Origin: Candidatus Nitrosocaldus sp.
GTDB taxonomy: Archaea > Thermoproteota > Nitrososphaeria > Nitrososphaerales > Nitrosocaldaceae
Assembly (NCBI GenBank): GCA_025054855.1
Contig: JANWZS010000013.1
Coordinates: 1 to 53,878, forward strand
Length of the DNA stretch: 53,878 nt
Reading direction: 5' to 3'
How positions within the stretch are numbered: position 1 is the first letter of the stretch; the number at the start of each line of letters is the position of its first letter. Shown one piece after another: positions 34,651-40,178 of the stretch. The notes under the pieces are model-generated. The model had not been told where the DNA came from. It did not search any database and saw only the letters and a list, made by a program, of their open reading frames with translations. Made by a program: the position numbers and the translations under genes.

Positions 34651-35271
34651 ATGTTCACGGGTATAGTGAAGTGCATGGGCAGGGTTGAGGATCTGATGCT
34701 GCATGAGAGGGAGGGTAGTGCACTGACACTCGTGGTGGATATAGGGGAGCTAGCAGGTAGAACCAGGATAGGGGATAGCATATCGGTCAACGGTGTATGC
34801 CTTACTGTAGTGGCACTCGATGGCAGTAGCGCTACATTCAACGTGATAGGGGAGACGGTGAGGAGGAGCAACATAGGGATGCTCAAGAGGGGTGAGTACG
34901 TGAATCTGGAGCCCAGCATAAGGGCCGGGGAGAGCATGGATGGGCACTTCGTCCTTGGGCATGTAGATGGCACTGGCACAATAGTGGAGAGGAATGAGGA
35001 GGGGGATCAGGTCATCATGGGTATAGAGATAGATAGAGGGCTGATGAGGTATATAGCGATGAAGGGTTCAGTGGCCGTGGATGGGGTTAGCCTAACCGTT
35101 GCTGGGGTCAGGGGTAACGTATTCTACGTAGCACTCATCCCGCATACGCTCCAGGTCACCACACTAGGCCTCAAGGGTGTAGGTGATAAGGTGAATGTAG
35201 AGGTAGATCTGCTTGCGAGGTACATAGCGAACCTCCTGGAACATACCAATATATTAGTAGATACAAAATAA
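34651..35271 (+). CDS. ribE: Riboflavin synthase, bacterial-type (alpha chain)
   Basis: The 206-residue protein has two tandem lumazine-binding domains. MFTGIVKCMGRVEDL opens the first; a second copy of the fold starts near GHFVLGHVDGTGTIVERNEE. SINGV/SVNGVCLTVV and VDGVSLTVAGV are the paired active-site loops. It dismutates two 6,7-dimethyl-8-ribityllumazine molecules into riboflavin plus a pyrimidine product. Many archaea use an unrelated pentameric riboflavin synthase, so this two-domain form is notable. Position: first of five riboflavin-pathway genes on the plus strand, 30 bp before ribB. Confidence 0.93.
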   Translation: MFTGIVKCMGRVEDLMLHEREGSALTLVVDIGELAGRTRIGDSISVNGVCLTVVALDGSSATFNVIGETVRRSNIGMLKRGEYVNLEPSIRAGESMDGHFVLGHVDGTGTIVERNEEGDQVIMGIEIDRGLMRYIAMKGSVAVDGVSLTVAGVRGNVFYVALIPHTLQVTTLGLKGVGDKVNVEVDLLARYIANLLEHTNILVDTK

Positions 35272-35301: not shown

Positions 35302-36000
35302 ATGAGTGACATGGTCACGGGTTCAAGCCTGTACAGCGTGGAGGAGGCTATAGATGCCCTCAGGCAGGGCAGGTTCGTGCTCCTCCACGATGGCAAGGAT
35401 AGGGAGGATGAGGTAGATATGCTGGTTGCTGCCCAGTTCGTCACCCCCAGGCATATAGCAACCATGAGAAGGGATGCAGGGGGTCTGATATGCCTTGCAC
35501 TGGGCCATGATACAGCAAGCAGGCTAGGTCTGCTTTACATGCATGATCTCCTCATGCTTGCACTGGATGGTAAGTTGAGGGATGTGGTATCAGCACACTC
35601 TCCATATGGTGATAAGCCATCATTCTCCATAACCATAAACCACAGGGATACGTACACTGGTATAACCGACAGGGATAGAGCATTAACGATATCTGGTATG
35701 GCAAGGGTAGTGGAGAGACTGAGCAGGGGGGAGGATGGTGTAGCAGAGTTCATAGCATCGTTCAGATCACCAGGGCATGTACCATTGCTGATAGCAGCGA
35801 AGAACCTGCTGAGGGAGAGGAGGGGTCATACAGAGATGGCCATATACCTGGCAGAGAAGGCAGGACTCATCCCTGCAGTTGCAATATGCGAGATGCTAGA
35901 CTCATCGACGCATATGGCACTCTCCTTCGAGAAGGCTAGGAGGTACGCAGAGAGGCATGGTCTATGCATACTTGATGCATCAATGCTGGCAGCAGAGTGA
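35302..36000 (+). CDS. ribB: 3,4-dihydroxy-2-butanone 4-phosphate synthase
   Basis: A single-domain RibB of 232 residues, which makes the four-carbon unit of riboflavin from ribulose 5-phosphate. The acidic metal/phosphate loop GKDREDEVDMLVAAQFVTP and MRRDAGGLICLALGHD are family signatures. The active-site region FRSPGHVPLLIAAKNLLRER, then GHTEMAIYLAEKAGLIP, carries the conserved His-Thr-Glu. No GTP cyclohydrolase II domain is fused, as expected in an organism that uses GTP cyclohydrolase III. Start ATG 35302; a TATA-like tttataac precedes, so the gene might also have its own promoter. Confidence 0.93.
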   Translation: MSDMVTGSSLYSVEEAIDALRQGRFVLLHDGKDREDEVDMLVAAQFVTPRHIATMRRDAGGLICLALGHDTASRLGLLYMHDLLMLALDGKLRDVVSAHSPYGDKPSFSITINHRDTYTGITDRDRALTISGMARVVERLSRGEDGVAEFIASFRSPGHVPLLIAAKNLLRERRGHTEMAIYLAEKAGLIPAVAICEMLDSSTHMALSFEKARRYAERHGLCILDASMLAAE

Positions 36001-36036: not shown

Positions 36037-36534
36037 ATGACCAGGGACGCTAACTTCACCGATCCTATCAGGCTCGGGGTAGTGGTTGCAGAGTTCAATG
36101 GCGAGATAACCTCAAGCATGCTGGATAGGGCATGCAAGCATGCCAAGGAGTTGGATGCGGAGATCAGGTACATATGCTATGCCCCAGGAACCTTCGATAT
36201 GCCCCTATTCGTAGAGGGCCTCTTGAGCAGGGATGATGTGGATGCTGTAGTAACCCTGGGTGCGGTGATCAAGGGGGAGACCATGCACGATGAGGTTGTA
36301 GCATTCAACGCATCTAGGCTTATAGCAGATCTAGCACTGAGGTACGGTAAACCAGTAGCATTGGGCATCTCTGGACCTGGGATGAGCTATGAGCAGGCAA
36401 TGGACAGGATAAACCCAGTATCGACCAGGGCTGTAAGCGCTGCTGTGAGCATGGTAAGGAGGCTCAGGATGCTCAAGGGCATAGACTCTAATATGGAGAG
36501 GGGAGAGGGAACTGGTACCATGGTGATAAGGTAG
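36037..36534 (+). CDS. ribH: 6,7-dimethyl-8-ribityllumazine synthase
   Basis: A 165-residue lumazine synthase. RLGVVVAEFNGEITSSML starts the fold, APGTFDMPLFVEGL binds the substrate ribityl chain, and VVTLGAVIKGETMHDEVV carries the catalytic His. It condenses the dihydroxybutanone phosphate with 5-amino-6-ribitylaminouracil, supplying the substrate of the upstream ribE product. The stop codon lies inside a GTAG tetranucleotide repeat (36531-36548), so slippage there could change the extreme C-terminus or the distance to gch3. Confidence 0.93.
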   Translation: MTRDANFTDPIRLGVVVAEFNGEITSSMLDRACKHAKELDAEIRYICYAPGTFDMPLFVEGLLSRDDVDAVVTLGAVIKGETMHDEVVAFNASRLIADLALRYGKPVALGISGPGMSYEQAMDRINPVSTRAVSAAVSMVRRLRMLKGIDSNMERGEGTGTMVIR

Positions 36535-36560: not shown

Positions 36561-37361
36561 ATGATCCAGATCACGCTCATTAGGCTTGAGGGCTATGGGC
36601 CATGGACGGCAACCCTTGGTAGCGATAGGGAGCATCAGCTCCAGATACTCCAGTCTAGGCTCTACAGCGATATGCAGGAGCAGTTCGCAAAGAGGAACGG
36701 GTTGGTGTTCTTCAACAGGTTCGATGAGATGTTCGCTGTGAGCAACGGGATAAGCGTGGAGGAGCACAGGAGCATACTTGATGCTGTGACCACATCCTAC
36801 GATCTGAACATAAGCATGAGGATAGGTGCTGCCGAGACTCCTTACAGGGCACACGAGAGCGCAAGGAGTGCAAGCAACACGGTGAGTAAGGGCCTGCTGG
36901 TAGCAGATGGGCTGGATGCGTATAAGGATGGTCTGGTGCAGATAATGCATATAGATGTTGATGGCTCGACCACCGATGTGAGTTCCAGGCTCACACCGTA
37001 CCAGGTGTCACTCCTGGTGATGAGGCTCCACGTGGCTATCGCTGAAGGGTTCCTGGCCAAGGGCTCGCTTACATTCTTTCTAGGCGGGGATAACTTCATG
37101 GTGGTATCTAGCAGGTTGGGCAAGGGGGAGGTTGAGGAGACCATCAAGAGGGTTATGGCAGGTACCTCGGTCAGGTTGAAGTGTGGGATAGGTATTGCTA
37201 GGGATGCAAGGAGCGCTGCTATGCTCGCTACTAGAGCACTGGATACCATAAGGGAGATGAGGAGGGGGAGGAGTGCAGGGGAGGGTAAGGGTAGGGATGG
37301 CGGTGCATATGACGAGAAGAGGTATGGAATAGATAGCGTGGTTGAGCTGAGTTGTATATAA
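36561..37361 (+). CDS. arfA: GTP cyclohydrolase III (archaeal GTP cyclohydrolase IIa)
   Basis: A 266-residue GGDEF-fold-related enzyme that opens the imidazole ring of GTP, giving a formamidopyrimidine nucleotide, as the first step of archaeal riboflavin and F420 synthesis. The opening MIQITLIRLEGYGPWT and the nucleotide/metal loops FFNRFDEMFAVSN and FFLGGDNFMVVSS are family marks, with two pseudo-symmetric halves. The C-terminal 25 residues are low in complexity and Gly-rich. The last ten bases overlap the next gene (amidohydrolase), strong evidence for translational coupling. A bacterial GTP cyclohydrolase II is absent from the window. Confidence 0.92.
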   Translation: MIQITLIRLEGYGPWTATLGSDREHQLQILQSRLYSDMQEQFAKRNGLVFFNRFDEMFAVSNGISVEEHRSILDAVTTSYDLNISMRIGAAETPYRAHESARSASNTVSKGLLVADGLDAYKDGLVQIMHIDVDGSTTDVSSRLTPYQVSLLVMRLHVAIAEGFLAKGSLTFFLGGDNFMVVSSRLGKGEVEETIKRVMAGTSVRLKCGIGIARDARSAAMLATRALDTIREMRRGRSAGEGKGRDGGAYDEKRYGIDSVVELSCI

Positions 37362-38581
37362 GGAATATCAGCATTCTATATGGCAGCGACCTAGAGTTCG
37401 TTGCTAAGGCAAGTGTCACAGTTAACGAGAGCACTGGTACGATCCAGAGGGTTGAGAGGGGTTCTACTCTACACGCTGCTGATACCAGCACAGATACCCG
37501 TACCGTGGACGGTGAAGGTCTACTCATGATACCCTCCTTCATAAACGCACACACCCACATAGCAGACTCCATAGCAAAGGACGTTGCATACAATCTGGGC
37601 TTCAATGAGAGCATACATCCAGTCTTCGGTGTGAAGAGGAAGGTTCTCAATGAGAGCAGGAGGGAGCATATAATGCACTTCATAAGATCATCAGCACTAT
37701 CCATGCTCAGCAAGGGGATAACCATGTTCATAGACTTCAGGGAGCAGGGGCTGAATGGTGTGAATATGCTCAGGGAGAGCATGAACGGTGTTGTGATGAG
37801 GTACCTTGCACTGGGCAGGGTGGAGCACTACTCAGGAGGCGAGGAGCCTCTCACACAAGAGGCATTGGAGGATGCTTTCAAGGTAGCAGATGCATCCGAT
37901 GGGTTTGGGCTGAGCGGAGCAAATGAGTATAGCAGTGCTGCATTGAAGCAGATAGCCATGGTTGCGGCGTCCAGGAATAAGCTGTTTGGTATGCATGCAT
38001 GCGAGTCTGAAGAGTCCCAGGCATACTCTATGGAGAGGTTCGGTATGAGTGAGGCGAGTAGGATACTGGGTATAGCAAGGCCAGACTTTCTCGTACATAT
38101 GACGGTAGCAAGTGACAGCGATCTCATGGTCGCAGCATCCAAGGATGTGGGCATAGTGGTATGCCCCAGGGCCAACGCTGTGCTGGGTGTGGGGATACCG
38201 AGGGTATGGGATATGCTCAGATTGGGCTGCACGGTTGCCATAGGCACGGATAATGTCATGCTCAATACCCCAGATATATTCAGGGAGATGGACTACATAT
38301 GGAAGCTCTCAAGGGTTATGTACAAGGGTGAGAGGGGTAGAGGTATAGATGCTAGGGATGTACTGAAGATGGTCACGGTCAACCCGGCAAGGATATTCAG
38401 GCTGAACAGGCTGGGGTACCTGGAAGAGGGTATGTATGCAGATGCACTCTTCATAGACAAATACAGTCTTGATATAGCACCAATGCACAATCCATACACT
38501 GCCATAGTGCATAGAGCAGGCGAGTCGAGTATAAGGGCTGTGATGCTGAATGGTAGGGTGGTTCATGGCAGGTTGGAATGA
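37352..38581 (+). CDS. Amidohydrolase-superfamily deaminase or hydrolase, candidate riboflavin-pathway step
   Basis: A 409-residue metal-dependent amidohydrolase of the cytosine-deaminase/chlorohydrolase class. The metal and catalytic ligands are in place: His67 and His69 in NAHTHIAD, His215 with Glu218 in GMHACESE, His249 in LVHMT, and Asp300 in IGTDN. Members hydrolyse C-N or C-Cl bonds on ring compounds, often deaminating purine or pyrimidine rings. It overlaps gch3 by 10 bp and precedes arfC by 83 bp, so it sits inside the riboflavin operon. In the archaeal pathway the deaminase (and in some lineages the deformylase) is not assigned, so this protein is a candidate for one of them. That function is inferred from position and fold only. 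Confidence 0.85.
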   Translation: MYIRNISILYGSDLEFVAKASVTVNESTGTIQRVERGSTLHAADTSTDTRTVDGEGLLMIPSFINAHTHIADSIAKDVAYNLGFNESIHPVFGVKRKVLNESRREHIMHFIRSSALSMLSKGITMFIDFREQGLNGVNMLRESMNGVVMRYLALGRVEHYSGGEEPLTQEALEDAFKVADASDGFGLSGANEYSSAALKQIAMVAASRNKLFGMHACESEESQAYSMERFGMSEASRILGIARPDFLVHMTVASDSDLMVAASKDVGIVVCPRANAVLGVGIPRVWDMLRLGCTVAIGTDNVMLNTPDIFREMDYIWKLSRVMYKGERGRGIDARDVLKMVTVNPARIFRLNRLGYLEEGMYADALFIDKYSLDIAPMHNPYTAIVHRAGESSIRAVMLNGRVVHGRLE

Positions 38582-38664: not shown

Positions 38665-39351
38665 ATGAGTGCTGATGCAGGCATGGACAGACCATACGTT
38701 ATAATCAACGCTGCTATGAGCGTAGATGGCAAGATATCCAGCATCTCTAACGACTCTAGGCTCTCATCCCAGCATGATCTTGCAAGGGTCCATAGGCTTA
38801 GGAGTATGGTAGATGCGGTCATGGTTGGGATCAACACGGTGCTCATAGACGATCCCATGCTCAACGTGAGGTATGCTGTGGGCAGTAACCCAACGAGGGT
38901 GGTGGTGGACAGCCATGCTAGGATAGGCTTAACATCCAGGATAGTAAGTACGTGTAGGAGCATACCGACCATAGTGGCGGTATCTGAGCAGGCGGATCAT
39001 GTCAGGGTGGAGCGGTTGAGGGGTATGGGGGTGAGTGTCGTTATAGCAGGCAGGGATAGGGTTGATCTACGCATGCTGCTCCATCGGTTGAGTATGATGG
39101 GTATAAGGAGGGTGTTGGTTGAGGGAGGAGGGGAGCTCAACTGGTCACTACTGAAGGAAGCACTGGTGGATGAGTTGATCGTCACCGTAGTGCCAATCGT
39201 GCTTGGTGGAAGAGCAGCAAAGACGCTGGTAGAGGGGGAGGGCTTCTCAGGTGTAGATGATGCTAGGAGGCTCTCGTTGGTAGGTATGGAGAGGGTAGAT
39301 GGCACGGATGAGGTTGTATTGCATTACAGGGTTCAGGGGTCGCAATCATGA
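38665..39351 (+). CDS. arfC: 2,5-diamino-6-ribosylaminopyrimidinone 5'-phosphate reductase
   Basis: A 228-residue RibD C-terminal-type reductase (NAD(P)H, reducing the ribosyl to ribityl side chain). PYVIINAAMSVDGKIS starts the DHFR-like fold; the substrate-binding HDLARVHRLRSMVDAVMVG, the NPTRVVVD strand, IRRVLVEGGGELNWSLL and the end VLGGRAAKTLVEGEGF are family signatures. There is no deaminase domain fused, as in archaeal ArfC. A later in-frame ATG at 38683 (MDRPYVI) is a possible start. Last gene of the riboflavin run. Confidence 0.92.
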   Translation: MSADAGMDRPYVIINAAMSVDGKISSISNDSRLSSQHDLARVHRLRSMVDAVMVGINTVLIDDPMLNVRYAVGSNPTRVVVDSHARIGLTSRIVSTCRSIPTIVAVSEQADHVRVERLRGMGVSVVIAGRDRVDLRMLLHRLSMMGIRRVLVEGGGELNWSLLKEALVDELIVTVVPIVLGGRAAKTLVEGEGFSGVDDARRLSLVGMERVDGTDEVVLHYRVQGSQS

Positions 39352-39435: not shown

Positions 39436-39957
39436 CTACGCACTACCCTCGCCATTCTTCTGCATCTCCTTACTCAACTCATCTATCTTTGCTACTATAG
39501 CCCTCTTGAGCATAGAGTTGTCTGCCAAGTTGAGGGGAGCCTTGCACGATGGGCATCTGAAGAATGCATCAACTGCCTGCTCGAACGTGAGCCTTGGACA
39601 TGAGTAGTTGCCACAGTGGTAGAACTGGTTGCTCTCCTCATACTGCAGCCTTATTCTAAGCCTCTCCAGTATCTTGCGCTTCTGCCCATCTATGAAAGTG
39701 TCAACATTATCCCTCTTGACCCTCCACCTGTACACGAACCAGCCCTTCTTCTCATCCCTGACCCTTATCCCACTTATCAGTGCCTTGCTGAAGAGATCGT
39801 AGAGTACCTTCCTTACTGTGTTTATCTTGAGCCCTGTAGCACTGGCTATCTCCTCATCAGTAGTATCCTCATTGTTGAGCAGTGCTCTAGCAACCCTGAC
39901 GTAATCATCCCCACCAAGCAGATGGGCTATCTTCACAAACGTATCCTCATACTCCAT
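39436..39957 (-). CDS. tfe: Transcription factor E alpha subunit
   Basis: A 173-residue TFE (archaeal TFIIE alpha), which helps open promoter DNA at the RNA polymerase clamp. The N-terminal winged helix includes DDYVRVARALLNNEDTTDEE and TGLKINTVRKVLYDLFSKAL with its wing RDEKKGWFVYRWRV. The C-terminal zinc ribbon has ligands in YHCGNYSCPRL and FFRCPSCKAPL. The tail is basic-helical and ends with a short acidic stretch. The frame continues upstream to 40041, but ATG 39957 (MEYEDTFVKI) matches family starts. Spaced 221 bp from the divergent zinc-ribbon gene. Confidence 0.9.
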   Translation of the reverse strand: MEYEDTFVKIAHLLGGDDYVRVARALLNNEDTTDEEIASATGLKINTVRKVLYDLFSKALISGIRVRDEKKGWFVYRWRVKRDNVDTFIDGQKRKILERLRIRLQYEESNQFYHCGNYSCPRLTFEQAVDAFFRCPSCKAPLNLADNSMLKRAIVAKIDELSKEMQKNGEGSA

Positions 39958-40178
39958 GGTATTGTATGGTTCAGGACCATTATTATGCCTTCTGTAATGG
40001 TTATAACTTAGCAATATTGATATCCCTGATGAGGGTACCATATATATGGGTTGATAAGGTTAAAGGCTGGTGTTATATCCTACACAGAGAGCGACCCGCT
40101 CACTGGCTGCGTAGTCATGCCAGAACTACACTACTCCTACACCAAACAGCTCAGGGGGTAGCCCTAACCAAGGGCAGT

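Follow-up and report, generated by a model that had tools for sequence, protein, structure and literature searches.

A PRK07213-type amidohydrolase in the riboflavin operon of Candidatus Nitrosocaldus as a candidate for the archaeal pyrimidine deaminase

Which enzyme removes the 2-amino group from the pyrimidine intermediate of archaeal riboflavin synthesis? The same chemistry is carried out by the N-terminal domain of bacterial RibD and by fungal Rib2, both of which have the CDA fold (PF00383). The question is raised by a stretch of 53,878 nucleotides from Candidatus Nitrosocaldus sp. (contig JANWZS010000013.1, hereafter the window), in which an amidohydrolase gene, whose product has a fold unrelated to that of RibD and Rib2, is inserted between the genes for GTP cyclohydrolase III and the ArfC reductase. 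The initial annotation held that the deaminase is not assigned in archaea and that this amidohydrolase could supply deaminase or deformylase activity.

The amidohydrolase and its operon

The riboflavin genes of the window are the following:

34651..35271, + strand: riboflavin synthase, bacterial two-domain lumazine-binding type (TIGR00187 and PF00677, two domains)
35302..36000, + strand: ribB (TIGR00506)
36037..36534, + strand: 6,7-dimethyl-8-ribityllumazine synthase, ribH (TIGR00114)
36561..37361, + strand: GTP cyclohydrolase III, arfA/gch3 (PF05165, E 1.5e-62)
37352..38581, + strand: PRK07213-type amidohydrolase (AHS), proposed 2,5-diamino-6-ribitylamino-4(3H)-pyrimidinone 5'-phosphate deaminase (profiles, residues, gene order, signature, tree)
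38665..39351, + strand: ArfC, archaeal 2,5-diamino-6-(ribosylamino)-4(3H)-pyrimidinone 5'-phosphate reductase (TIGR01508, 227 bits, above cut-off)

The start of the AHS gene overlaps gch3 by 10 bp and arfC is next downstream, an arrangement described in the initial annotation and borne out by the PF05165 and TIGR01508 matches. Upstream of gch3, in the same orientation, are the genes for riboflavin synthase, ribB and ribH. The two-domain riboflavin synthase, bacterial in type although the operon is archaeal, is kept across ammonia oxidisers. At the other end, a TFE-alpha-like gene (39436-40041, minus strand) is convergent with arfC, and this neighbor is retained in many ammonia oxidisers.

The AHS open reading frame is intact and full length, starts with TTG and encodes 409 aa. 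The protein matches Amidohydro_1 with an E value of 1.8e-45 in a Pfam-type profile search and scores 324.5 bits on NCBIfam PRK07213 (NF005552), above the curated threshold of 294; the name of that family, "chlorohydrolase", is a legacy label. AHS is a metal-dependent amidohydrolase of subtype III. None of the six residues first named for it, His67, His69, His215, Glu218, His249 and Asp300 (HxH, H, HxxE, H, D), varies among 17 diverse relatives that share 22-78% identity, and its description as a complete amidohydrolase holds. The same profile search returned only Amidohydro_1 and Amidohydro_3 matches, with no PF00383 domain of the RibD/Rib2 type and no creatininase fold (PF02633; NF033501) in the protein. 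The AlphaFold2 model is confident (pLDDT 92.8, pTM 0.93), and its nearest neighbors among solved structures comprise deaminases of nucleobases and nucleosides as well as triazine hydrolases. At 74-76% identity, the closest relatives of AHS among the 80 loci kept in a narrow-alignment pattern scan belong to Candidatus Nitrosocaldus and further Nitrososphaerales, so that the host is an ammonia oxidiser of the thermophilic type; by title, all 80 loci were ammonia-oxidiser relatives or archaea, with no methanogen among them.

The source genome (1.56 Mb, 98.9% complete) was also searched for other deaminases. Genome-wide, profile searches detected no CDA-fold deaminase (PF00383 or PF14437), which disposes of a hidden enzyme of this fold and of a separate RibD-type deaminase elsewhere in the genome. 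The initial observation that neither a RibD deaminase nor an ArfB is visible is right for the window; at the scale of the whole genome it stands for the RibD type and fails for ArfB, as one creatininase-family candidate is present on another contig. No second amidohydrolase of the same deaminase type was found in the source genome, where the two other Amidohydro_1 proteins are the urease alpha subunit and a dihydropyrimidinase/dihydroorotase-like protein. PF00383 is likewise absent from the congener G197, it has no credible match in 12 genomes that encode ArfA and ArfC, and it has no match in the control genomes of M. jannaschii and S. acidocaldarius. Other ammonia-oxidising archaea have one PF00383 protein of ~185 aa, which is probably a dCMP deaminase.

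Distribution, gene order and family signature

The order gch3-AHS-arfC was found in all 31 genomes sampled from the order Nitrososphaerales, and a constancy of 31 out of 31 indicates that the arrangement is not due to chance. Named loci from the pattern scan show the same order on every contig of sufficient length, with a gap now and then between AHS and arfC. Outside the order, 20 of the 41 strong family members in the phylum sample adjoin gch3 or arfC; the remaining half are apart from both, and nearly all of their genomes have the pathway genes. The clusters take several forms. Genomes of family f20, which we guess to be Sulfolobaceae-like, have ribB-ribH-gch3-AHS, and in further families AHS adjoins arfC. 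The initial annotation had suggested looking in relatives for such linkage, which is indeed kept across the phylum with gch3, arfC or both.

Another association emerged in the deep lineages L034, L036, L038, L175 and L176, where the AHS-arfC pair adjoins cofG and cofH, the genes for F420/FO synthase; in L040, cofG/cofH are a few kb away. The substrate of CofH is 5-amino-6-(D-ribitylamino)uracil, i.e., the dephosphorylated product of the proposed deamination. This neighborhood suggests a tie between the candidate deaminase and F420 synthesis.

Co-occurrence was evaluated in 200 genomes of the phylum. Each of the 70 genomes with both ArfA and ArfC has a family match, strong (>140 bits) in 67 and weak in three (G018, G074 and G141, 87-115 bits). 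By comparison, only 4 of the 129 genomes without ArfA contain a strong member; three of these have ArfC and the fourth is 76% complete. The family is almost absent where ArfA/ArfC are missing, with a Fisher p of ~2e-44 for the co-occurrence, a value that ignores shared ancestry. The list of strong members above 140 bits was curated manually to exclude longer ATZ/TRZ paralogs that score 140-170 bits, and it is backed by the signature and the tree described below for the fetched members, which are part of the total. Strong PRK07213 members also occur in M. jannaschii, H. volcanii and M. acetivorans, and M. jannaschii has an ArfC match as well.

Some genomes deviate from this pattern. In L175 (G109), L176 (G019) and L151 (G103), ArfC and the amidohydrolase are present with no match to GTP cyclohydrolase III. 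ArfC-like reductases with neither GTP cyclohydrolase III nor AHS occur in G050, G093 and G159 (family f23), in G080, G094, G130 and G148 (family f3), and in G115 and G160; these genomes may use another route, or the reductase may be misassigned.

An alignment of family members with ATZ/TRZ paralogs from the same phylum revealed five positions that mark the riboflavin type, namely Lys95, Glu131, Arg273, Asn301 and Arg388, a signature defined within the present analysis. Asn301 lies in the context GTDN, as opposed to GTDG/S in the paralogs. The signature is present in the window protein and in nearly all members, and is absent as a set from the paralogs. The exceptions within the family are L050, with Trp at 273; L044, with Asp at 388; and the divergent L146, which lacks the residues at both 273 and 388. 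The sole member in G074, which encodes ArfA and ArfC, is a divergent one of this kind, lacking Arg273 and Arg388. In the tree, a branch with a support of 100/100 sets the 18 paralogs apart from the rest.

The proposed reaction and its alternatives

Taken with the predicted fold and the lack of a CDA-fold rival, the gene order, the co-occurrence and the conserved residues make it very probable that AHS is the pyrimidine deaminase of the archaeal riboflavin route and, where present, of the F420 route, with its substrate deduced from the logic of the pathway. The strong members located away from gch3 and arfC and the divergent protein of G074 weigh somewhat against this reading. By pathway logic, AHS would act on the product of ArfC, 2,5-diamino-6-ribitylamino-4(3H)-pyrimidinone 5'-phosphate, and hydrolyze its 2-amino group to yield 5-amino-6-ribitylamino-2,4(1H,3H)-pyrimidinedione 5'-phosphate and ammonia. 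A mononuclear metal held by His67, His69, His215 and Asp300 would activate the water molecule, while Glu218 and His249 would manage the protons at C2. Three basic residues specific to the family, Lys95, Arg273 and Arg388, may grip the 5'-phosphate or the ribityl chain.

Because ArfC yields a substituted isocytosine, the removal of the 2-amino group from it is the same type of reaction as that of isocytosine deaminase. An enzyme specific for isocytosine, Vcz (7ww2, 8is4), has the same amidohydrolase deaminase fold as AHS (TM 0.85, ~20% identity), and its substrate corresponds to the ring of the one proposed for AHS. Vcz acts on the free base, so that residues for a phosphorylated substrate are presumably not needed in it.

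Deamination might instead precede reduction, as in the bacterial order, with AHS acting on the ribosyl compound. The position of AHS ahead of arfC in the operon would agree with this order, and ribosyl and ribityl substrates are inseparable by sequence, but in archaea reduction comes first and deamination second according to papers that cite Graupner 2002 and Romisch-Margl 2008, which leaves the bacterial order with very little probability.

It is similarly improbable that AHS is a deformylase with the function of ArfB, acting on the product of GTP cyclohydrolase III while the deaminase resides elsewhere. The gene does lie directly 3' of gch3, amide cleavage is known for some amidohydrolases, and the creatininase-family protein of the source genome (G000:C33:70800-71501, L001) falls well short of the curated ArfB model, at 42 bits where 180 are required. 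Because of this weak match the protein is a candidate only, although a likely one, for the ArfB of the source genome. Against the deformylase role, creatininase-family proteins are present in 70 of the 71 genomes with ArfA, and their gene adjoins AHS-arfC in L034, arfA (gch3) in L177 and, within an arfC-arfA-ribB-ribH cluster, AHS in L051; the two enzymes therefore coexist. Furthermore, M. jannaschii has a strong PRK07213 member as well as an ArfB that, according to PMC9478397, citing Grochowski 2009, is biochemically known. Finally, the Glu218/His249 pattern and the fold neighbors of AHS are deaminase-like. Of the two activities first suggested for AHS, deaminase is thus retained and deformylase rejected, given that nearly every ArfA genome has a creatininase-type ArfB candidate, at times adjacent to AHS.

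The remaining alternative, an ordinary ATZ/TRZ nucleoside deaminase (e.g., for 5'-deoxyadenosine/SAH/MTA or guanine) that merely happens to be located in the operon, was discarded on the basis of scores, signature and tree and has hardly any likelihood: AHS shares its fold and metal ligands with TM0936 and the other MTA-SAH-5'-deoxyadenosine deaminases of this group, gives weaker profile matches to 5'-deoxyadenosine, SAH/MTA and 8-oxoguanine deaminases, and is accompanied by no other member of the group in the source genome, yet it passes PRK07213 and misses the curated models of the group by hundreds of bits (NF005557, 95.7 against 522; NF012037, 55.2 against 779). In addition, the phylum paralogs of the TM0936/ATZ-TRZ group occur together with the riboflavin type in a number of genomes, do not have Lys95/Glu131/Arg273/Asn301 and are separate in the tree, and the presence of the AHS family follows ArfA/ArfC rather than general nucleoside metabolism.

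Earlier predictions and significance

The assignment of AHS as a deaminase has a precedent. According to PMC8305020, riboflavin synthesis in haloarchaea has three gaps left, two of which have candidates from Rodionova et al. 2017, and its list includes HVO_1235, a candidate for arfB, and HVO_2483, which is 34% identical to MJ0699 and for which the function is "also predicted for MJ0699". In that list HVO_2483 is placed between arfC and the missing phosphatase, and on our reading must therefore be the deaminase candidate. The strong PRK07213 members of M. jannaschii and H. volcanii are presumably MJ0699 and HVO_2483. A search of the literature with the locus tags HVO_1235, HVO_2483 and MJ0699 retrieved no paper besides PMC8305020, and experimental proof of an archaeal deaminase activity was not found in it; the relevant passages of a 2026 review place reduction before deamination in archaea and name no archaeal deaminase.

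On this basis, AHS belongs with good support to a predicted family, and the idea is not new, the same candidate family having been proposed in 2017. Since these predictions exist, with no further paper and no enzyme named in those passages of the review, the activity of AHS is a predicted one and the initial annotation amounts to an independent rediscovery. Its statement that the deaminase is unassigned in archaea overlooked the earlier prediction of HVO_2483 and MJ0699.

Few steps of this essential cofactor pathway still await proof, and the archaeal flavin/F420 deaminase is one of them; a gene within the operon, combined with a family signature and with genomes that have no detectable CDA-fold deaminase, provides a clean candidate for it, which the cofG/cofH linkage extends to F420. 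From the gch3-AHS-arfC and AHS-arfC-cofG-cofH clusters, it appears likely that archaea in general rely on an amidohydrolase in place of a CDA-fold enzyme for the deamination in riboflavin and F420 synthesis. If so, the deamination step would represent a complete non-orthologous replacement between archaea on one side and bacteria and fungi on the other.
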